Shown here one piece after another: positions 7,461 through 15,957 of a stretch of 39,423 nucleotides of DNA; the stretch's first letter is position 1; each line of letters starts with the position of its first letter. This DNA comes from a virus. Location of the stretch: positions 1 to 39,423 of the IMG/VR virus record IMGVR_UViG_3300029448_000117, one strand, 5' to 3'. The translations under genes and the position numbers were made by a program. The notes under the pieces are model-generated. The model did no database searches and was not told where the DNA came from. It was given only the letters and a program-made list of their open reading frames with translations.

Positions 7461-7553
7461 ATGGGATTAAATAGCCAATTACTATTATTAATGATTGCTT
7501 TTAGTTTTTTTATTTGGGTTTGTTTTTCTTTTGGTCTGTTTTTTTCTAATTAA
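7461..7553 (+). CDS. Possible 30-codon hydrophobic peptide
   Basis: The ATG at 7461 opens 30 codons encoding a single hydrophobic segment (LLLLMIAFSFFIWVCFSFG). There is no clear ribosome site, and T-rich DNA easily gives such frames by chance. It may not be expressed. Confidence 0.15.
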   Translation: MGLNSQLLLLMIAFSFFIWVCFSFGLFFSN

Positions 7554-7640
7554 TAAACCTAAATAAAACTTTATGCTTTACTTTTAATTAAAACTAAATT
7601 AATGATTTAAGAATACTTAAACAAACTATGAGGTTTTATT

Positions 7641-7859
7641 ATGATAAAGACAATAACAAGATTTAAACATTATACATTTTTAACAACTACATTATGGTTA
7701 ATTGCTATATTAAATTTTATGGGTACTACATTATTAATTGATTTTATACTTGGTTTAAATCTATTTTTATTATTTGGTTTTCTAGGATTAATAACAATGG
7801 GTTTAGAAATGTACTCAATTAATTATAGATTTGAAAAGCTAAAACATAGAATAAAATAA
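7641..7859 (+). CDS. Small membrane protein of the AT-rich island
   Basis: The 72-residue product has two probable membrane helices at about 13-34 and 35-57 and a basic C-terminus (YRFEKLKHRIK). The ATG follows GAGG at 7631-7634 in the context GAGGTTTTATT, a ribosome-site context that recurs at 8803. A terminator follows at 7878. It would be the first gene transcribed after the genome end, so an early role at the host membrane is possible. No family is recognised. Confidence 0.5.
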   Translation: MIKTITRFKHYTFLTTTLWLIAILNFMGTTLLIDFILGLNLFLLFGFLGLITMGLEMYSINYRFEKLKHRIK

Positions 7860-7877
7860 ACCTTTAAATATTCCCTT

Positions 7878-7914
7878 AAAAAAACCTTAGATTAATTTTC
7901 TAAGGTTTTTTTTT
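7878..7914. terminator. Rho-independent terminator
   Basis: AAAACCTTAG (7881-7890) pairs with CTAAGGTTTT (7900-7909) around a nine-base loop, followed by a run of T. The A-run on the left could make it work in both directions. It closes the gene at 7641. Confidence 0.8.
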
Positions 7915-8026
7915 ATTTAATACTTGTAATTTGTTTAAAAATGATTATTTAATATATTATTAGATTAATTTTTTAAATTTCATTCGTTTAATTAATTAAT
8001 ATCTGTTTCTCATTGTTGGTGATTTA

Positions 8027-8047
8027 TTCGAGGTTTTAGAAGGTTAG
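8027..8047 (+). repeat. Left arm of a perfect 21-bp inverted repeat
   Basis: Bases 8027-8047 (core TCGAGGTTTTAGAAGGTTAG) are the exact reverse complement of 8762-8782, 714 bp further on. The arm contains GAGGTTTTA, the ribosome-site context seen before the genes at 7641 and 8814. The enclosed segment carries two protein genes. Confidence 0.9.
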
Positions 8048-8096
8048 TAATAACCTTGCCTAATAATTATATTAGGTACTTTTAGAAAGTCTAAAA
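8040..8096. promoter_or_regulatory. Three tandem hairpins before the gene at 8099
   Basis: Three perfect stems follow each other. AAGGTT/AACCTT spans 8040-8057 (loop of six). CCTAATA/TATTAGG spans 8059-8076 (loop of four). TTTTAGA/TCTAAAA spans 8080-8096 (loop of three). The last ends two bases before the ATG at 8099, where no clear ribosome site is free. Control of translation or RNA stability is possible. The first stem overlaps the left arm of the long inverted repeat. Confidence 0.6.
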
Positions 8097-8098
8097 CT

Positions 8099-8422
8099 AT
8101 GAAAAACAATAATAAAATTTCATTAATTCAAATCTTATCTTTAATTAAGGCTAGAAGGGAATTTATAAAACCTTCAAGAGTTTATAAAAAAAGATATGGA
8201 ATAACTCGAGGTAAACAAAGTTTAGGTTTACATTTTGGTTTAAAATCTAAATATTACTTTTTAGGTAATGCAGGAAATAGAACTTTTATTCCTGCAATGC
8301 CAACAATGGAAAGGAATAAATATCTTAAGGTTAAAGCTAATAACCTTTTAATTATTGGAAAAAGAAATAAACTTAAAAAAAGTCAGGGTTTATTTTCTAA
8401 TTTTGAAAAAGGTACAATATAA
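8099..8422 (+). CDS. Basic protein of unknown function inside the inverted-repeat cassette
   Basis: The 107-residue protein is strongly basic, with many Lys and Arg (KARREFIKPSRVYKKRYG, GKRNKLKKSQG). The middle part is GLHFGLKSKYYFLGNAGNR. Nucleic-acid binding is plausible from charge alone. The start lies two bases after a hairpin and lacks a clear ribosome site. The stop overlaps the next start (TAATG). No family is recognised. The gene is very AT-rich, like the rest of this island. Confidence 0.45.
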   Translation: MKNNNKISLIQILSLIKARREFIKPSRVYKKRYGITRGKQSLGLHFGLKSKYYFLGNAGNRTFIPAMPTMERNKYLKVKANNLLIIGKRNKLKKSQGLFSNFEKGTI

Positions 8423-8652
8423 TGATTAATGAAAAAGCAAATAGAATCCAAGACAATGCTAATGAAATTATTGACATTAAAAGTTATGTTGATGATTTGA
8501 TAATTGAAAGTAAAAAACTTAATGAAGGTTTTTCCACTAATCAAATAGCTAACATTGTTAAAAGTGTATACGGTAATAAAGGTTATAATATAGCTTTTGA
8601 ATACATTTTAAATAAACGTGGTTTATCTAGATTTGTTGATAGTAGGTTTTAA
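8422..8652 (+). CDS. Small helical protein of unknown function inside the cassette
   Basis: This 76-residue protein is predicted to be mainly helical: charged N-terminal half (EKANRIQDNANEIIDIKSYV), then FSTNQIANIVKSVYGNKGYN, which could be a small helix-turn-helix-like segment, although the match is weak. It is translationally coupled to the gene at 8099 by a one-base overlap and shares its AT-rich composition. The function is unknown. Confidence 0.45.
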   Translation: MINEKANRIQDNANEIIDIKSYVDDLIIESKKLNEGFSTNQIANIVKSVYGNKGYNIAFEYILNKRGLSRFVDSRF

Positions 8653-8653
8653 A

Positions 8654-8725
8654 ATGATTATTAAAGCATTACTTGAAACAATCTTATTACTTAGCTTTAT
8701 TGGTTTTATTCTAATCATAGCTTAA
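8654..8725 (+). CDS. Possible 23-residue membrane peptide
   Basis: The ATG at 8654 follows TAGGTTTTAAA, like the context of the real start at 8814 (GAGGTTTTAAA). It opens 23 codons, almost all hydrophobic (MIIKALLETILLLSFIGFIL). It starts one base after the preceding stop. It may be a toxin-like or regulatory membrane peptide, or a chance frame. Confidence 0.3.
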   Translation: MIIKALLETILLLSFIGFILIIA

Positions 8726-8761
8726 ATACATTTTAAAAGGGTTTGGACGGCTTCAAGTCGT

Positions 8762-8782
8762 CTAACCTTCTAAAACCTCGAA
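8762..8782 (-). repeat. Right arm of a perfect 21-bp inverted repeat
   Basis: This is the exact reverse complement of 8027-8047 over 21 bases. A six-base-pair hairpin (GACGGC, loop TTCAA, GTCGTC, 8746-8762) directly abuts it. The GP88-like gene begins 31 bases downstream, outside the cassette. Confidence 0.9.
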
Positions 8783-8813
8783 AATAATTTTAACTGTTAT
8801 ATGAGGTTTTAAA

Positions 8814-9422
8814 ATGGAATTTTCACAAATACATATAAGTAAAGGTTCTGGAAAACTAGAACTTATTAATTCTATTAATACTAATACGTTAACTAATGAT
8901 TATTGTACTAAACAAGCTAAGAATAAAAAGTCTATTTGTAGTTTATGTTATAGCCAAAAATCATTAAAAACATATCGTAAAAATATGGTTAATGTATTAG
9001 AAAAAAATACAAGGTTATTAAGTGAACAAGTTTTTCAAAAGTCTTTATTACCTACAATCTTTAATAGTTATTTTAGGTTTAATTCTCATGGTGAATTAAT
9101 TAATTTAATTCATTTAGAAAACTTGGTTAACATAGCTAAGAAAAATCATCATTGTAATTTTACATTATGGTCTAAAAGATATGATTTAATAACTATATTT
9201 TTTGATACTCATAAAAAACCTAAGAATTTATTTTTGGTTTATTCAAATAGCAAATTAAATAAACCTATTGATAAACCTATTAAATACTTTGATAAAACTT
9301 TCAATAATATTTCAAAAGACAAAGTTAATAATTTTAAAATTAATTGTTTTTCTAAATGTAAAAATTGTTTACTTTGTTACACTAAAAATAAAACTACTAC
9401 TATTATTGAAAAGGTTAAATAA
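8814..9422 (+). CDS. GP88-like Cys-rich marine phage protein
   Basis: The 202-residue product resembles the phage 'gene product 88' domain family. It has C31, then C42-x-x-C45-Y46 (ICSLCYSQKSLK), FRFNSHGEL (86-95) and LWSKR (118-122). A C-terminal cysteine cluster lies at 178, 182, 185 and 188 (CFSKCKNCLLCY). The cysteines could bind a metal or a cluster. The family is common in marine phages and its function is unknown. The start has GAGG seven bases upstream. A strong terminator follows. It lies just outside the inverted-repeat cassette. Confidence 0.6.
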   Translation: MEFSQIHISKGSGKLELINSINTNTLTNDYCTKQAKNKKSICSLCYSQKSLKTYRKNMVNVLEKNTRLLSEQVFQKSLLPTIFNSYFRFNSHGELINLIHLENLVNIAKKNHHCNFTLWSKRYDLITIFFDTHKKPKNLFLVYSNSKLNKPIDKPIKYFDKTFNNISKDKVNNFKINCFSKCKNCLLCYTKNKTTTIIEKVK

Positions 9423-9462
9423 AAAAAAGGTCTATAGATTAATTTTTATAGACCTTTTTTAT
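9423..9462. terminator. Strong rho-independent terminator
   Basis: The left strand 9423-9436 (AAAAAAGGTCTATA) pairs perfectly with 9447-9460 (TATAGACCTTTTTT) around a ten-base loop. The flanking A and T runs make it potentially bidirectional. It closes the AT-rich island behind the GP88-like gene. Confidence 0.85.
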
Positions 9463-9562
9463 TGCCTAAAATTAATTAAAAAAAAACTCAGCTCAATAAT
9501 TTTATTTAACAAGTTAATAATATATAGTCTAAAATTTCCCAAAAATTCACCATATTTTACAT

Positions 9563-9607
9563 CTTGTTCCCTTCTTGTTCCCTTGATAAATTTTTTTTCT
9601 TGTTCCC
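9563..9607 (+). repeat. Three CTTGTTCCC repeats before the early operon
   Basis: Exact copies start at 9563, 9574 and 9599. The first two are 11 bp apart (one helical turn) and the third 25 bp further. They lie between the island terminator and the first early gene, so they may be binding sites for a regulator or for integrase arms. Confidence 0.65.
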
Positions 9608-9651
9608 TCTTGTAATTTTATATAGCCCTTCCTATATGTAAGTTTGTAGTC

Positions 9652-9693
9652 GTAGACACATGGCTTTTCCTCATAGTTTTACCATGTGTCTAC
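9652..9693. promoter_or_regulatory. 12-bp inverted repeat before the early operon
   Basis: GTAGACACATGG (9652-9663) pairs perfectly with CCATGTGTCTAC (9682-9693) around an 18-base loop. It ends 26 bases before the ATG at 9720. No T-run follows, so it is not a standard terminator. An operator, a leader stem or an RNA-processing site is possible. Confidence 0.6.
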
Positions 9694-9719
9694 AAGTATT
9701 AACTTTAATGGAGGACTAA

Positions 9720-9938
9720 ATGAAACATTGGAAAACCAAAGAAGATATGGGTAATGGCTTTCAGTTTAATGAGAAAGACCATATGGAAAATGGATATAAC
9801 TCTTTAGTGTGGGATGAAATTCCACAGTATGAAAAGAATGTAATGAGAACTTTCTATCTTATTAGAGATGTTTGGGATAGAGAACGTAAGTTAAAGTTAA
9901 AAAAGTTTTTAAATGATAATTTAAATGAGGAGTTATAA
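9720..9938 (+). CDS. Early protein of unknown function
   Basis: The 72-residue product starts MKHWKTKEDMGNGFQFNEKDH and has a charged helical C-terminal half (RDVWDRERKLKLKKFLNDN). GGAGG at 9711-9715 gives a clear ribosome site. It is the first gene of the early operon behind the 12-bp stem and repeat region. No family is recognised. Confidence 0.5.
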   Translation: MKHWKTKEDMGNGFQFNEKDHMENGYNSLVWDEIPQYEKNVMRTFYLIRDVWDRERKLKLKKFLNDNLNEEL

Positions 9939-10103
9939 ATGATTTTATATGGATATAATCTTGCAAAAGAAAAAAAGTTTGAAGTAAATGCAGAAGTTAT
10001 ATGTGAAAGAATAAATACAGATAGTTATTTTTCAGATGATTACTATGTGTTTGTGTCTAAAGAAGATAGAGATTTTCACTTTAATGAAAATGTTAATAAA
10101 TGA
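9939..10103 (+). CDS. Early 54-residue protein of unknown function
   Basis: The ATG at 9939 follows the preceding stop directly, with GAGGAG upstream (9927-9932), and opens 54 codons. The product is acidic and aromatic-rich (MILYGYNLAKEKKFEVNAEV, then DSYFSDDYYVFVSKED). Tight packing with both neighbours supports it as a real gene. Its function is unknown. Confidence 0.5.
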   Translation: MILYGYNLAKEKKFEVNAEVICERINTDSYFSDDYYVFVSKEDRDFHFNENVNK

Positions 10104-10113
10104 GGAGGACTAA

Positions 10114-10479
10114 ATGAAGACATATTTTATAGACGCAATAAACGAACTCATAATTGAAACAGATGTTAAAGGTTATGAGCATAAGAAAGAATTAATTAAA
10201 TGTAATTGGTTGGAAATATATCCATACCTAGTAAATGGCAATGACATATGGACAGATGAGGAAGCTAATCTACAGAATTATAATTACTTCTTTCAACTAG
10301 ATGATGTTATTGTTAGTGGTAATGCACTCATCATGTCATGTGATGAAGAAGGAGAATCAATACCACCTAAGAACTTAACTCTTGAAGAACTTAAAAAGAG
10401 AGTTACCTTTATGGGCAAGAGATACATTGACCATGATAAATTATTTAGTAAATTTAAAATAGAGGAGTGGAAGATATAA
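10114..10479 (+). CDS. Early protein, DUF3846-like
   Basis: The 121-residue product reads like the small DUF3846-type proteins of marine phages. It has an N-terminal strand with KTYFIDAINELIIETDVKG, a middle NGNDIWTDEEANLQNYNYF, then VIVSGNALIMSCDEEGESIP and a C-terminal PKNLTLEELKKRVTFMGK. The function of that family is not firmly known. GGAGGAC upstream of the ATG is a strong ribosome site. The stop overlaps the next start (TAATG). The family call is from pattern memory and needs a profile search. Confidence 0.5.
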   Translation: MKTYFIDAINELIIETDVKGYEHKKELIKCNWLEIYPYLVNGNDIWTDEEANLQNYNYFFQLDDVIVSGNALIMSCDEEGESIPPKNLTLEELKKRVTFMGKRYIDHDKLFSKFKIEEWKI

Positions 10480-10766
10480 TGATTACTGTAACACAAACAA
10501 TGTATGACAAGTCTTGTATAGATGCTAACAAGTCTGTCATGGGTTTCTTTGAGCATTACTTTGGTGAAGAACCATTTAATACTTATGGTGCTTACTACAT
10601 GATTAGAGGTATATACGAAGATGATTGTACTCTTAAACTATTTAGGACTAAGGGTAGAAAAGATAAACGTATAGCTTTTCCTATGTGGAAGAAGTACATC
10701 AAAGTTGGAGATACTATTAAGTTAACTATAAATGACGTAGACCAAATTGGTATAGAAGTGGAGTAA
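10479..10766 (+). CDS. Early protein of unknown function
   Basis: I place the start at ATG 10479, behind AGAGGAG (10461-10467), rather than at GTG 10467, which lies inside the ribosome site. The 95-residue product starts MITVTQTMYDKSCIDANKSV and ends IKLTINDVDQIGIEVE, a beta-type ending. The middle holds a basic stretch (FRTKGRKDKRIAFPMW). No family is recognised. Confidence 0.5.
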   Translation: MITVTQTMYDKSCIDANKSVMGFFEHYFGEEPFNTYGAYYMIRGIYEDDCTLKLFRTKGRKDKRIAFPMWKKYIKVGDTIKLTINDVDQIGIEVE

Positions 10767-10769
10767 ACC

Positions 10770-10904
10770 ATGAATAGATATTATGTAGAAGTAAAACATT
10801 CTTGGAGTAAGAATCTTGTATCACTTTATGTGTATGCCTATAGCCCTAAACACATAAAAGACATAATTGAAGGTGAATTAGTAACAATAGACCAAACAGA
10901 TTAA
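10770..10904 (+). CDS. Early 44-residue protein of unknown function
   Basis: The ATG at 10770 follows GGAG and the preceding stop closely and opens 44 codons (MNRYYVEVKHSWSKNLVSLY, then SPKHIKDIIEGELVTIDQTD). Small alpha-beta proteins of this look are frequent in early regions of marine phages. It sits in the same tight operon. The function is unknown. Confidence 0.45.
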   Translation: MNRYYVEVKHSWSKNLVSLYVYAYSPKHIKDIIEGELVTIDQTD

Positions 10905-10914
10905 AGGAATCTTT

Positions 10915-11280
10915 ATGACACAGAAAATTAAACTAGAACTATTAAAGGTTAAGTATGCTATCAAAGATATGTTAGGTCTTGATGGTTGTACTCAAAGTAA
11001 TGACGAACAATATAAACAGATGATAGAACGATTAGAAACTTTAGAGGAGGATAGTGTGAAGTATAGATATACACATGAAGAACAAACAGTTGACGTCAGG
11101 TCATGGACTGTAGAGTCAGACGTTCCATTGACTGATGAACAAGTAGGAGAATTATGTAGTGAGCATGGCTTTGATGAAGGTATAGCACATGATACAGAGC
11201 AAGGTAATTCAGTACAGTATCTTGGTACTGAGTATGGTGATGACTCACAAATAAATACTTATTGTACTAAGGGATTGTAA
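10915..11280 (+). CDS. Early acidic protein of unknown function
   Basis: The 121-residue product has a helical N-terminal half (LELLKVKYAIKDMLGLDG, QYKQMIERLETLEED) and an acidic C-terminal half (VPLTDEQVGELCSEHGFDEG, YGDDSQINTYC). AAAGGAA precedes the ATG. An internal start near residue 47 (GTG after GAGGA at 11045) is possible. No family is recognised. Confidence 0.45.
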   Translation: MTQKIKLELLKVKYAIKDMLGLDGCTQSNDEQYKQMIERLETLEEDSVKYRYTHEEQTVDVRSWTVESDVPLTDEQVGELCSEHGFDEGIAHDTEQGNSVQYLGTEYGDDSQINTYCTKGL

Positions 11281-11282
11281 GC

Positions 11283-11411
11283 ATGGAAGATGAATACGTA
11301 TATAGTTTAGAATGTAACAACTGTGAAGACATGACTTGTGCAGAGGTGTGTTTCTTTTATAAAGATGAAACTTACTGTGAGTGGTGTTGTCCTGAAGGAT
11401 ATGGAGAGTAA
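11283..11411 (+). CDS. Cys-rich 42-residue protein, possible zinc ribbon
   Basis: The ATG at 11283 opens 42 codons with seven cysteines: C11-x-x-C14, C19, C23, C32, C35 and C36 (LECNNCEDMTCAEVC, YCEWCCPEG). This spacing suggests one small metal site. It begins two bases after the preceding stop. Its stop is two bases before the next start. Small zinc-ribbon proteins are common early proteins in marine phages and may bind host factors. Confidence 0.45.
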   Translation: MEDEYVYSLECNNCEDMTCAEVCFFYKDETYCEWCCPEGYGE

Positions 11412-11413
11412 GT

Positions 11414-11653
11414 ATGGATAAAAAAATAAAATATAACTCATGTTCCATTGATACTTGGGATGGTAAAACTTATTGGCATAAAGGTTTTGAAACACTTGAT
11501 GAAGTTTATGCTCACTTAAAAAAATATGTTCATAAACAATGTGACGTTATTATTTATGATATTTCTGAACGTAAAGAACATGGTATTAAATTTGTTGGTA
11601 TTATTAAAAGATATAGCAACAGAAAGGAAACTAATGAACTGTTGGCATTGTAA
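11414..11653 (+). CDS. Early protein of unknown function
   Basis: The 79-residue product starts MDKKIKYNSCSIDTWDGKTY and has a helix (FETLDEVYAHLKKYVHKQC) followed by strand-like VIIYDISERKEHGIKFVGII. The alpha-beta plan hints at a small compact fold. The end overlaps the next gene by 20 bases. No family is recognised. Confidence 0.45.
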   Translation: MDKKIKYNSCSIDTWDGKTYWHKGFETLDEVYAHLKKYVHKQCDVIIYDISERKEHGIKFVGIIKRYSNRKETNELLAL

Positions 11654-11810
11654 TACTAAATTAATATGGGGGGGTGACCATGATATAAGCGAGGAGGATG
11701 GTTATTCATACGAAGGTATAGTCACTAACCTCTCTTGTCCTAACCCTAATTGTAACTCTCATGTTGACGTTTATTTACCTATAGAAAGGACTGATGATGA
11801 ACCTGATTGA
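11634..11810 (+). CDS. Small zinc-ribbon-like protein (58 aa)
   Basis: The frame is open further upstream, but the supported start is ATG 11634, behind AAAGGA (11622-11627). It gives MNCWHCNTKLIWGGDHDISE, then LSCPNPNCNSHVDVYLP. The pairs C3/C6 and C-x4-C near residues 35-40 form a typical zinc-ribbon arrangement. The MNCWHC-x-x-LIWGGDHD start is familiar from other marine phages. The function is unknown. Confidence 0.6.
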   Translation: MNCWHCNTKLIWGGDHDISEEDGYSYEGIVTNLSCPNPNCNSHVDVYLPIERTDDEPD

Positions 11811-12084
11811 ACTTGAATATAAAACAAGTAATAAATTTAAATTGTTTGTTGATGCTTCAGTAGAAACTATGTGGGCAGAAGCAATACAAAATGATGACAT
11901 TGGTGATACTTGGCACTCATTTTGGTACAGAGATAGACCATATGATTTTAATATATGGACTGATGATGTTACTGATGTGACATATTGTTCTGTCTACTCT
12001 TGTTATTATGATGAGGATAACGATATATGTACTGATGATTCAGATTTTTACAGAGTTAAAGAGGAGAAGATACTTGTACATTGA
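11794..12084 (+). CDS. Early acidic protein of unknown function
   Basis: The 96-residue product has two possible starts, ATG 11794 and ATG 11797. The second has the better distance from AAGGA (11786-11790). The sequence is acidic and aromatic (SVETMWAEAIQNDDIGDTWH, YDEDNDICTDDSDFYRV). It overlaps the preceding gene by 17 bases and the next by 11. An acidic early protein of this kind could mimic DNA, but nothing specific shows it. Confidence 0.45.
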   Translation: MMNLIELEYKTSNKFKLFVDASVETMWAEAIQNDDIGDTWHSFWYRDRPYDFNIWTDDVTDVTYCSVYSCYYDEDNDICTDDSDFYRVKEEKILVH

Positions 12085-12262
12085 CCCAATACCAACAAAC
12101 ACACATCTTGTTGACGTAGTAAGTGAATATAAAAAGCTACGTCAACTTCAGTATGACTTTGAATGGGACGAGAACTCACAACGAGCAGAGTTCTATAAGT
12201 CTCAAGCAAATCATTATCATACTTTAATGAAAAAAGGAATATTGTTTGACCCTTTATTTTAA
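12074..12262 (+). CDS. Early protein, TTG start (62 aa)
   Basis: The frame is open from 12008, but the best start is TTG 12074 behind GAGGAGAAG (12061-12069). It gives 62 residues beginning MYIDPIPTNTHLVDVVSEYK. The IDPIPTNT-x-LV segment recurs in small early proteins of marine podoviruses. The rest is helical (QRAEFYKSQANHYHTLMKKG). It is the last small gene before the integrase. Confidence 0.5.
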   Translation: MYIDPIPTNTHLVDVVSEYKKLRQLQYDFEWDENSQRAEFYKSQANHYHTLMKKGILFDPLF

Positions 12263-12297: not shown

Positions 12298-13329
12298 ATG
12301 CCAATTAGAAAAATAGCAAATGCTTGGCAAGTAGACATTCGTAAAAAGGGTGTTGTATTTCGCAAGTCATGTTCCTCTAGGAATGATGCAGTCAAACTTG
12401 AAAAGCATTGTATGAAATGTATTGAAGATGGGTTACCTTTACCAGAAGCAAACTGTGTCTTAGGTATGACATCTGAAATCTTGTTCCAAAAGACTGCAGA
12501 TAAATATTGGTCAGACTCTGATTGGGGTCTAACACAGATACGTAGACAAGATAAAATACTTGATGTCATGGGACGTAATGTTCCTATACAAGATATTAGT
12601 TCCACCATGATTGATGATGTTATACAACACTTCAAAAAGAATGGTGCATCTTCTTCTTCACTCAACAAGATTAGTGCTTGTATTTCTAAGTCACTAAATC
12701 TAGCAGTAGACAGAGGGTGGTTAGATAGGAAACCTAAACTTGATTGGATACCAACTAAGAATGGTAGACTAAGATATTTAATTGAAGAAGAAGAAACCTA
12801 TCTTGTTCAGAGGTTAACTGAAAAAAATGAAACAGACTGCAGAGATTTTTTCTTGTTCCTGTTGGACACAGGTTTACGTAGAGGAGAGGGCTTACGTTTG
12901 TCCTGTCGTGACGTTGACCTAGACAAAGGAACTCTTTCTGTTTGGGAAACCAAGAACGGACATCCTCGTACTGTTCCGTTGACAAGACGAGTTAAGAATA
13001 TATTACAGACTCGTATTGACACAGAAGGCAGACTAAAAAACAAACCTATATTTAATCTTACAGAAGACAAGATAAGACGTGTATGGGAATGGCTACGTGA
13101 TGACATGGGTCTACAAGATGACAAAGAGTTTGTCTTACATAGCTTACGTCACACCTGTGCATCTCGTCTTGTTCAGCGAGGAATACAACTGCAAGTTGTA
13201 CAACAATGGCTTGGTCATAAGTCTATACACATGACTCTAAGATATGCACACTTGGATACGCAAAATCTTTTAGATGCGAGTAGAGTGTTAGAATCTGATG
13301 ACAAATTTATGGACAATATGACAGGCTAA
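12298..13329 (+). CDS. int: Tyrosine-family integrase
   Basis: This 343-residue site-specific recombinase integrates phage DNA into the host chromosome. The N-terminal arm-binding part is residues 1-60, the core-binding helices run about 62-150, and the catalytic domain about 165-343. Catalytic residues are R194 (TGLRRGEG), K219 (WETKNG), H281 and R284 (HSLRHT), H307 (WLGHKS) and the nucleophile Y316 (LRYAH). AGGAGA lies before the ATG. A tRNA-Leu 3' half, the probable attP, follows 47 bases behind the stop. Integrase directly before the RNA polymerase is the arrangement known from temperate pelagiphages. Confidence 0.95.
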   Translation: MPIRKIANAWQVDIRKKGVVFRKSCSSRNDAVKLEKHCMKCIEDGLPLPEANCVLGMTSEILFQKTADKYWSDSDWGLTQIRRQDKILDVMGRNVPIQDISSTMIDDVIQHFKKNGASSSSLNKISACISKSLNLAVDRGWLDRKPKLDWIPTKNGRLRYLIEEEETYLVQRLTEKNETDCRDFFLFLLDTGLRRGEGLRLSCRDVDLDKGTLSVWETKNGHPRTVPLTRRVKNILQTRIDTEGRLKNKPIFNLTEDKIRRVWEWLRDDMGLQDDKEFVLHSLRHTCASRLVQRGIQLQVVQQWLGHKSIHMTLRYAHLDTQNLLDASRVLESDDKFMDNMTG

Positions 13330-13371
13330 TATGTGTAAGTATCTGAATTATAGATTGGTAATCCTAAGTCA

Positions 13372-13430
13372 CTCGACTTAAAATCCCTCGACTTAACGGT
13401 CATGTCGGTTCGAGTCCGACCCTGGGCACA
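13372..13430 (+). other. Probable attP: 3' half of tRNA-Leu(UAA)
   Basis: From 13376 the sequence reads as the 3' part of a class II tRNA. The anticodon loop is CTTAAAA (anticodon TAA), followed by stem strand TCCCT. A variable arm GAC/GTC spans 13390-13400. The T arm is GTCGG-TTCGAGT-CCGAC (13404-13420), then the acceptor strand CCTGGGC and A. The 5' strand of the anticodon stem is absent (CTCGA instead of AGGGA), so this is not a working tRNA. Such a fragment next to an integrase restores the host gene after integration. CTCGACTTAA occurs twice, at 13372 and 13387. Confidence 0.85.
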
Positions 13431-13469
13431 CCTTCTAAGTAATTCAAATACTTCATAAAGTTAACAAGT

Positions 13470-13494
13470 CCCTTGAGAAATCAGGGGCATTTTA
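13470..13494 (+). terminator. Hairpin, possible weak terminator behind attP
   Basis: CCCTTGA (13470-13476) pairs with TCAGGGG (13481-13487) around a GAAA tetraloop, with one G-T pair. CATTTTAA follows. The U-run is short, so termination would be weak. An RNA-processing role is also possible. A second small stem, CCTG/CAGG with TTTTTT, follows at 13497-13517. Confidence 0.45.
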
Positions 13495-13551
13495 ATCCTG
13501 TTTACGTCAGGTTTTTTAGACAATCGTAGACAATTTTATGGAGAGTTCAGT

Positions 13552-15957
13552 ATGGACACACGACAAGTATCGTTAGAACGTGAAATGCGAGAAGAAGGAA
13601 TCCACAGATTCCACAAGAATAACCTACAAAAAGCAGAGAAAGCCCAAGAATCTACAACTACCTATGGTCAATACCTCTTGAGACAGACAGTCTTAAAGGT
13701 AGAGGAAGCCATCAATGAGCACATAGAATCCTCAATGAAGGGTAGGTCAGGTAAGTCAGCTACATCAGCAGTCTTGTTGAATGACCTAGAGCCATCAGTC
13801 ATAGCAGTCATTACCTTGAGAGTAGCCATATCACAGATAACTAGGAAGAGAGACTACAGTAGTTGTGCAGTAGCTTTAGGTATGGCTATTGAGGATGAGT
13901 TGAGGATAAGAACATTCGAGGAAAACAATCCTCGTTTGTATAAGGTAGTTAAGCAAGACCTTGATAAGAGGTCATCAGGTTATACCTACAAAAGACGTAA
14001 GCTGATTGAGTCAGCTAGAAGAGATGGCATTGAGTGGACATCTTGGACACAGAGAGAAAAACTCTTGGTGGGTAATGCCTTACTTGATTTAACTATAGTC
14101 AACACAGGACTATTGGAACTCAAGAGTATGATGAAGGGTGGCAAGAGAAGACAACTCCTGTTGGCATCTGAAACTACACTAAAGATAATCAAAGACCTTA
14201 GTGCTTTCCAAGAGATACTAAGACCTGAGTTCTATCCTTGTGTTGTTCCACCTAAAGATTGGACTACACCTACAGATGGTGGATATCACACTCATCATGT
14301 AAGGCAGATACCTCTTGTTAAGACTGAAAACAAGAACTACCTAAAGGAACTCAAGCACTTTGATATGCCTATGGTGTATGGAGCAGTTAATGCTATGCAA
14401 CAGACAGGATTCAAGGTCAATCAGTTTGTCTTACAGGTACTAAAAGATATTTGGGATAGTGGCATAGCTTTACCTAGCTTACCACCATCAGAGAACGCAC
14501 CAATACCTAACAAGCCACATGATATTGCTACCAATAAACAAGCTAAGATTAATTGGAAAAGAAATGCAGTCATAGTTCATACAGAGAATAATCGTATGGC
14601 ATCTAAAAGACTCTTGTTAAGGAAGACTATACAGATAGCTGATAAATTCAAAGACGAGAAAGCTATCTATATGGTCTATCAACTAGACTTTAGAGGACGT
14701 ATATATGCAGTACCAAACTATCTGAACCCACAAGGTACAGACTTTGCTAAAGGACTACTGCTTTTTTCTGGTGGAAAAAAATTAGACGAGCAAGGGGCTT
14801 GTCACTTAGCTATACATGGGGCAAATATGTTTGGTTATGATAAAGCATCTTTGCAAGAACGTATTGATTGGGTAGAAGAACATCAAGATAGAATATTATC
14901 CTGTGCTAAAGACCCATTGGCTGACCTATGGTGGGCTAAAGAATCTGATAAACCTTTTCAGTTCTTAGCTTTCTGTAAAGAATGGGAAGGTCTTGTTGCT
15001 GACCCTGAGAACTTTGAGTCTAGTCTTCCTGTCTGTGCTGATGGTAGTTGTAATGGACTCCAACATTTTGCAGCAATGTTAAGGTCAGAGACTACAGGTA
15101 GAGAAGTTAATCTTGTACCAATGGATGACCCACAAGACATCTATCAAAAGGTAGCCGACACAGTTACCAATAAGTTAAAAGAAATGCCAGATGAATTAGC
15201 AAAGAAGTGGGTTGATTATGGTGTGTCTAGGTCATGTTGCAAACGTCCATGTATGGTGTTGCCTTATGGTGGTAAGCAATATTCTTTTACAGATTTTGTA
15301 ATGGATTATATTGTTGAGCAAAGAGACAAAGGTATATCACATCCGTTTGGTGAAGATGTATTTAAAGCTGCAACTTTTTTGTCTAAGTTAATCTGGCAAT
15401 CTATATCTGAAGTTGTTCATGCAGCAACTGATGCTATGGCATGGCTACAAAAAGCAGCTAGGGTTGCATCATCAGAAGGACTACCTATCAGATGGGACAC
15501 TCCATGTAATCTTCCTGTTCTACAGGCATACCAAGAAGTGAAGTCTAGTCAGATACAAACCAAGTTACTTGGAAAAGTATTTAAACCTAGAGTGTATTCA
15601 CAGACAGGTAAGTTAGATAAGAACAGACAAGCTAATGGTATCTCTCCTAACTTTGTACATAGTATTGATGCTAGTCACCTGATGATTACTCTTCATGTTG
15701 CCAAGCAGTTAGACATACATTCTTTTGCAATGGTACATGATAGCTATGGTACTCATGCTGCAGATGCTGAAGAAATGTGGAGTGCATTACGTACTGCATT
15801 TGTAGAGATGTATTCACAGATGGATGTACTAGAAGAGTTTAGAAATTATCTTTTAGAAGTTCTGCCTGAACACAGACATAAAGAGATAGAACCTATACCA
15901 ACTAAAGGAAATTTAATTTTAGATAAGGTACTTGAAAGTTCTTTTTTCTTTGCATAA
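13552..15957 (+). CDS. T7-type single-subunit DNA-directed RNA polymerase
   Basis: The 801-residue enzyme transcribes the phage middle and late genes. Seen motifs are YQLDFRGRIYAVPNYLNP (thumb/palm), CADGSCNGLQHFAAM with catalytic D497 (T7 D537), and RSCCKRPCMVLPYGG with K564 and Y572 (T7 K631 and Y639, same spacing). VHDSYGTHA carries the second catalytic D730 (T7 D812). It is shorter than T7 RNA polymerase (883). The start has GGAGAG upstream. A candidate target promoter lies directly behind the stop. Confidence 0.97.
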   Translation: MDTRQVSLEREMREEGIHRFHKNNLQKAEKAQESTTTYGQYLLRQTVLKVEEAINEHIESSMKGRSGKSATSAVLLNDLEPSVIAVITLRVAISQITRKRDYSSCAVALGMAIEDELRIRTFEENNPRLYKVVKQDLDKRSSGYTYKRRKLIESARRDGIEWTSWTQREKLLVGNALLDLTIVNTGLLELKSMMKGGKRRQLLLASETTLKIIKDLSAFQEILRPEFYPCVVPPKDWTTPTDGGYHTHHVRQIPLVKTENKNYLKELKHFDMPMVYGAVNAMQQTGFKVNQFVLQVLKDIWDSGIALPSLPPSENAPIPNKPHDIATNKQAKINWKRNAVIVHTENNRMASKRLLLRKTIQIADKFKDEKAIYMVYQLDFRGRIYAVPNYLNPQGTDFAKGLLLFSGGKKLDEQGACHLAIHGANMFGYDKASLQERIDWVEEHQDRILSCAKDPLADLWWAKESDKPFQFLAFCKEWEGLVADPENFESSLPVCADGSCNGLQHFAAMLRSETTGREVNLVPMDDPQDIYQKVADTVTNKLKEMPDELAKKWVDYGVSRSCCKRPCMVLPYGGKQYSFTDFVMDYIVEQRDKGISHPFGEDVFKAATFLSKLIWQSISEVVHAATDAMAWLQKAARVASSEGLPIRWDTPCNLPVLQAYQEVKSSQIQTKLLGKVFKPRVYSQTGKLDKNRQANGISPNFVHSIDASHLMITLHVAKQLDIHSFAMVHDSYGTHAADAEEMWSALRTAFVEMYSQMDVLEEFRNYLLEVLPEHRHKEIEPIPTKGNLILDKVLESSFFFA

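Follow-up and report, generated by a model that had tools for sequence, protein, structure and literature searches.

A tRNA-Leu(UAA) 3′ half of gammaproteobacterial type as a probable attP between the integrase and RNA polymerase genes of a T7-like phage

Half of a tRNA gene behind a phage integrase raises two questions: does it serve as an attachment site, and whose tRNA gene would it restore? The window, meaning the whole stretch of DNA analysed here, comprises the 39,423 bases of one virus record, and the intergenic region in question (13330-13551) has a tyrosine integrase gene on one side and a T7-like RNA polymerase gene on the other. A sequence-only reading had described an attP-like tRNA-Leu(UAA) 3′ half behind an intact integrase gene, with identity starting in the anticodon region and reaching the 3′ end. 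Reading of the sequence together with blast bears out the first description, supports the second at 51/55 in the best host match, and refines the borders to 13375 (rather than 13372) and 13429. The features of the region are:

12298-13329, + strand: tyrosine integrase, 343 aa, intact (PF00589, E 9e-29; phrog_1 integrase)
13337-13350, + strand: left arm of an inverted repeat, AAGTATCTGAATTA, putative integrase arm-binding site
13375-13429, + strand: tRNA-Leu(UAA) 3′ half, attP identity segment of gammaproteobacterial type (51/55 against tRNA-Leu(UAA) of genome G505; pairing kept in the alleles of relatives)
13375-13384, + strand: core GACTTAAAAT, the 3′ end of the left anticodon stem strand plus the anticodon loop; probable strand-exchange region, recurring behind related integrases
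within the segment: right anticodon stem strand, TCCCT
13390-13392 / 13399-13401: variable-arm stem
13404-13408 / 13416-13420: T stem, GTCGG/CCGAC
13421-13427: acceptor strand, CCTGGGC
13428 and 13429: discriminator A, then C
13440-13453, − strand: right arm of the inverted repeat, putative integrase arm-binding site
13470-13487, no strand: hairpin, an 18-bp palindromic unit whose orientation is opposite among relatives
13497-13517, + strand: terminator-like hairpin, CCTG...CAGG with T6 behind it, lying between attP and the RNA polymerase gene; putative terminator
13552-15957, + strand: T7-like RNA polymerase gene, directly 3′ of attP

The segment spans the anticodon loop to the discriminator base and starts 45 bp behind the integrase gene. 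The tRNA 5′ half is absent from it, which is why ARAGORN and Rfam report no tRNA in the window. In a blast search of gammaproteobacterial genomes, the segment aligned with tRNA-Leu(UAA) over 55 nt with 93% identity (in one genome, E 3.5e-17), a resemblance that, judged by sequence, is not due to chance. Identity with host genes begins at 13375 and ends at 13429, short of the last CA of the host-encoded CCA (...GGGCACACC in the window, ...GGGCACCA in the host). Because the integrase lies on one side and the RNA polymerase on the other, the segment represents the attP state and not a prophage junction. An integrase gene directly 5′ of a single-subunit RNA polymerase gene is the arrangement of temperate T7-like phages of the HTVC019P/LUZ100 kind, and the position of attP between the two genes is the same in HTVC019P-type pelagiphages and LUZ100.

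The attP-like site is genuine and of a kind already known, resembling the tRNA-Leu attP of T7-like cyanophages. In P-SSP7 and S-TIP37 a tRNA-Leu attP lies downstream of the integrase gene, and deletion of either int or attP abolishes integration (PMC8776855). As in these phages, the integrase gene of the window is followed by a noncoding stretch that matches part of a host tRNA-Leu. In the cyanophages, however, that stretch is identical to the host gene, the hosts are cyanobacterial and integration has been demonstrated, whereas the window carries a gammaproteobacterial-type UAA segment with a best host match of 51/55, and its integration is inferred. We consider it highly probable that 13337-13453 serves a T7-like (Autographiviridae) phage as attP, comprising a core shared with a gammaproteobacterial-type tRNA-Leu(UAA), a restoring 3′ half and flanking arm repeats. 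The integrase would recombine the core with the same sequence in the host gene, and the phage-borne 3′ half, ending at 13429, would take the place of the displaced host 3′ half; the host tRNA gene would stay functional, with the CCA enzyme supplying the last CA. The inverted repeats on either side would serve as integrase arm sites.

The proposal that integration would restore the host tRNA gene holds in silico. Adding a gammaproteobacterial 5′ half to the segment yields a full tRNA-Leu(UAA) that folds as a cloverleaf at -31.9 kcal/mol (ARAGORN plus folding), the last CA of CCA being unencoded. With SAR11 5′ halves the segment gives -19.6 and -23.3 kcal/mol and no cloverleaf; ARAGORN is permissive and calls a tRNA even in these SAR11 chimeras. 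The SAR11-type genes were located through the 5′ half borne by pelagiphage HTVC109P (exact, 40/40, in genome G171). They share only GACTTAAAATCC with the segment, approximately its first 12 bases, and then diverge, having anticodon stems AAGGA/TCCTT, acceptors GGCCTCG or GCCCTCG and a different variable arm. The SAR11 host expected by the sequence-only reading is therefore not borne out. A SAR11 host, with a tRNA-Leu(UAA) that the segment would match, is in our judgement very improbable: the terminase, capsid and RNA polymerase of the phage are indeed closest to those of pelagiphages, and a GC content of ~35% is not contrary to such a host, but terminase and capsid share only 60-68% identity with their pelagiphage counterparts, and anticodon stem, variable arm, acceptor and chimera folding all speak against it. 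A SAR11-clade genome with TTAAAATCCCTCGACTTAACGGTCATGTCGG would revive this explanation.

The segment instead points to a host of gammaproteobacterial type. The best match was G505, and G543 and its relatives reach 91% over the 55 nt. Looking for the exact host gene in sampled genomes (1870 genome look-ups, repeats included, covering part of the gammaproteobacterial species) did not find it. An exact 43-mer of the segment had no match in genome contigs and an exact 31-mer none in viral contigs, and searches in the families and orders of the best-matching genomes (G505, G543 and G385) gave no exact match. The long identity anticipated with a candidate host gene stands at 51/55 in the best gammaproteobacterial case, and an exact gene is absent from the sampled genomes. 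No attL/attR or integrated copy was present among the IMG/VR matches. A looser-pattern genome scan returned 11 assorted tRNA-Leu(UAA) genes, none of them the host's, and one viral contig (L105) proved to be GC-rich, to carry an ordinary complete tRNA-Leu and not to be a relative. It is also conceivable, if rather unlikely, that the same mechanism operates in an alphaproteobacterium other than SAR11, where variable arms ending in CATG are common; the allele of one close relative (L002) matches alphaproteobacterial tRNA-Leu(UAA) such as L127 at 49/55. The window allele, by contrast, reaches 45/55 at best in alphaproteobacteria against 51/55 in gammaproteobacteria, and the acceptor strand GCCCAGG, implied by CCTGGGC, occurs among the collected gammaproteobacterial genes and not among the alphaproteobacterial ones. 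With a gammaproteobacterial-type host, the att site would tie to such bacteria a marine T7-like clade whose nearest cultured relatives infect SAR11.

Where within the segment would strands be exchanged? GACTTAAAAT also stands behind the integrases of HTVC200P, HTVC119P, S28-C10 (also S28C10), L154, L173-L177, L179, L181, L183 and others; the core of LUZ100 is GACTTAAAA, and integrases ~30-60% identical to that of the window have the same GACTTAAAA(T) nearby. Because the core is conserved among related integrases, exchange is likely to fall within 13375-13384. The sequence-only reading had pointed to a repeat, CTCGACTTAA, as a possible marker of the exchange site. Its two mismatch-free 10-bp copies, at 13372 and 13387, are real; the second, however, is variable-arm sequence, and another variable arm stands there in relatives L002-L004 and L154. 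We rejected the repeat as the exchange site, and regard it as incidental, since relatives do not preserve its second copy.

Among the closest annotated integrases (32-34% identity) are those of the Votkovvirus-type pelagiphages HTVC200P and HTVC119P, uncultured S28-C10 and Pseudomonas phage LUZ100. Like the window, these phages have the core GACTTAAAA behind the integrase and then a T7-like RNA polymerase. Their core is bare, a complete tRNA-Leu(UAA) flanks the integrase on its opposite side and a MarR gene is present, whereas in the window the core itself bears the 3′ half, and neither a complete tRNA nor a detectable MarR gene is present. A bare core accompanied by a complete phage tRNA-Leu(UAA) also occurs in a series of IMG/VR contigs. 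Since many relatives bear such a gene beside the integrase, loss of a 5′ half is conceivable, and the segment might be the decayed remnant of a complete phage-encoded tRNA-Leu, no longer used for integration. We give this explanation very little credence: the segment starts precisely with the conserved core and runs to the tRNA 3′ end, in the place where relatives have their bare core, stem pairing is kept in all variants, and the half in L154 has the same borders.

A similar difference separates the window from other HTVC019P-like podoviruses with tRNA-Leu as target. The phages uv-Fonsiphage-EPL, HTVC025P and HTVC011P integrate into tRNA-Leu(TAG), and HTVC025P-like phages and the Fonsibacter phage combine a short core with a replacement tRNA there (PMC6811365). 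These phages have SAR11-clade hosts, an 11-bp core and their own tRNA-Leu replacement; the clade of the window and L154 instead place a 3′ half within attP, as do the T7-like cyanophages with a tRNA-Leu attP. HTVC109P shares with the window the core, the intergenic position and a flanking inverted repeat, but its att region contains the 5′ half of a SAR11-type tRNA-Leu(UAA). At the att place of HTVC109P and HTVC134P (L059, L060) stand tRNA 5′ halves (Leu UAA and apparently Arg), a mirrored counterpart to what the window has in its 3′ half.

The arms 13337-13350 and 13440-13453 are complementary at 13 of 14 positions and form the best inverted repeat of the intergenic region, equalled in quality by 1/200 and 0/200 shuffles. 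The repeat is strong in the window, S28-C10, HTVC019P, HTVC109P, HTVC304P and HTVC121P, and the site of L154 is flanked by a shorter pair, AAGTATATAA/TTATATACTT. As it is not general to all relatives, we regard it only as a candidate for the integrase arm sites.

Close relatives add a series of alleles. In five of them (L002-L006), whose integrases are 96-98% identical, the tRNA part occurs as three more alleles. In the window and these relatives, 9/56 tRNA columns vary (13391, 13393, 13394, 13397, 13398, 13400, 13405, 13419 and 13421) against 1/85 flanking columns (Fisher p 0.001, columns treated as independent). Two pairs covary: 13391/13400 (A-U, G-C, G-U) and 13405/13419 (U-A, A-U). The layout recurs in L154, whose integrase is 60% identical, but the tRNA allele there is a different one that matches small-genome gammaproteobacteria at 51/55. 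The simplest reading suggests that the alleles were acquired from host tRNA genes by recombination. Since strictly conservative excision would not swap alleles, this would call for homologous recombination within the duplicated 3′ half, and the series would document, in nature, how phage and host have exchanged sequence at a tRNA gene.

Other relatives have lost the site. In L007-L009, one population in three assemblies (>99.9% identical), the block that begins at the integrase stop codon and reaches almost to the RNA polymerase leader is missing; L153 is also without the att block, but the border differs and the integrase C-terminus is shorter. No internal stop interrupts any of these integrases. 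From these sequences, the att block has been lost in two other lineages with the integrase kept, and the site is for that reason dispensable; it may have been relocated elsewhere in these genomes. In the integrase alignment, the catalytic-type residues R194, K219, H281, R284, H307 and Y316 are invariant among six relatives, and dN/dS between the window and close relatives having the site is 0.09-0.20. On the L007 branch of the integrase, amino-acid changes are in excess, with 4 synonymous and 7 nonsynonymous changes against 36 and 14 (Fisher p 0.036, one weak uncorrected test). A broader proposal, which we regard as doubtful, is that the clade repeatedly replaces its attP tRNA cassette with alleles from new hosts, and that attP is also repeatedly deleted without loss of the integrase. 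If true, attP would act as a module for fitting the phage to its host, open to exchange and not indispensable, and the integrase may serve some purpose besides integration. The relatives without the att block offer natural controls on the role of the integrase in T7-like phages that perhaps never form stable lysogens.

On this sequence evidence the ability to integrate is well supported and likely, and stable lysogeny is unproven. A MarR-family gene stands beside the integrase in 10/10 annotated integrase-bearing T7-like comparators examined, annotated as a MarR-family transcriptional regulator in LUZ100 and as a transcription regulator, which aligns with the other comparators, in S28-C10. A profile built from these 10 found nothing in the window or in L002, L003 and L005-L007, and a Pfam search of the ORFs upstream of the integrase found no repressor. 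T7-like cyanophages integrate without stable lysogeny (PMC8776855). Because no repressor was recognised, two related lineages lack the site and the cyanophages behave in this way, the label 'temperate' given by the sequence-only reading is unproven. Related phages keep MarR in the region corresponding to 7500-12260, which in the window is AT-rich (GC down to 0.24) and filled with small ORFs, with one GP88-like match, one weak DUF3846 match and almost nothing else.

Two further observations concern relatives of this phage. The hairpin at 13470-13487 reads CCCCTGACTTCTCAGGGG in L002 and L004 and its exact reverse complement, CCCCTGAGAAGTCAGGGG, in L003; between the window and L005/L006 the same 18-bp flip is accompanied by one further change, and these flips look like small hairpin inversions at the sequence level. 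The contig IMGVR_UViG_2823602183_000005 (L162) encodes an RNA polymerase 96% identical to that of the window, and its identifier looks like that of a genome project rather than a metagenome.
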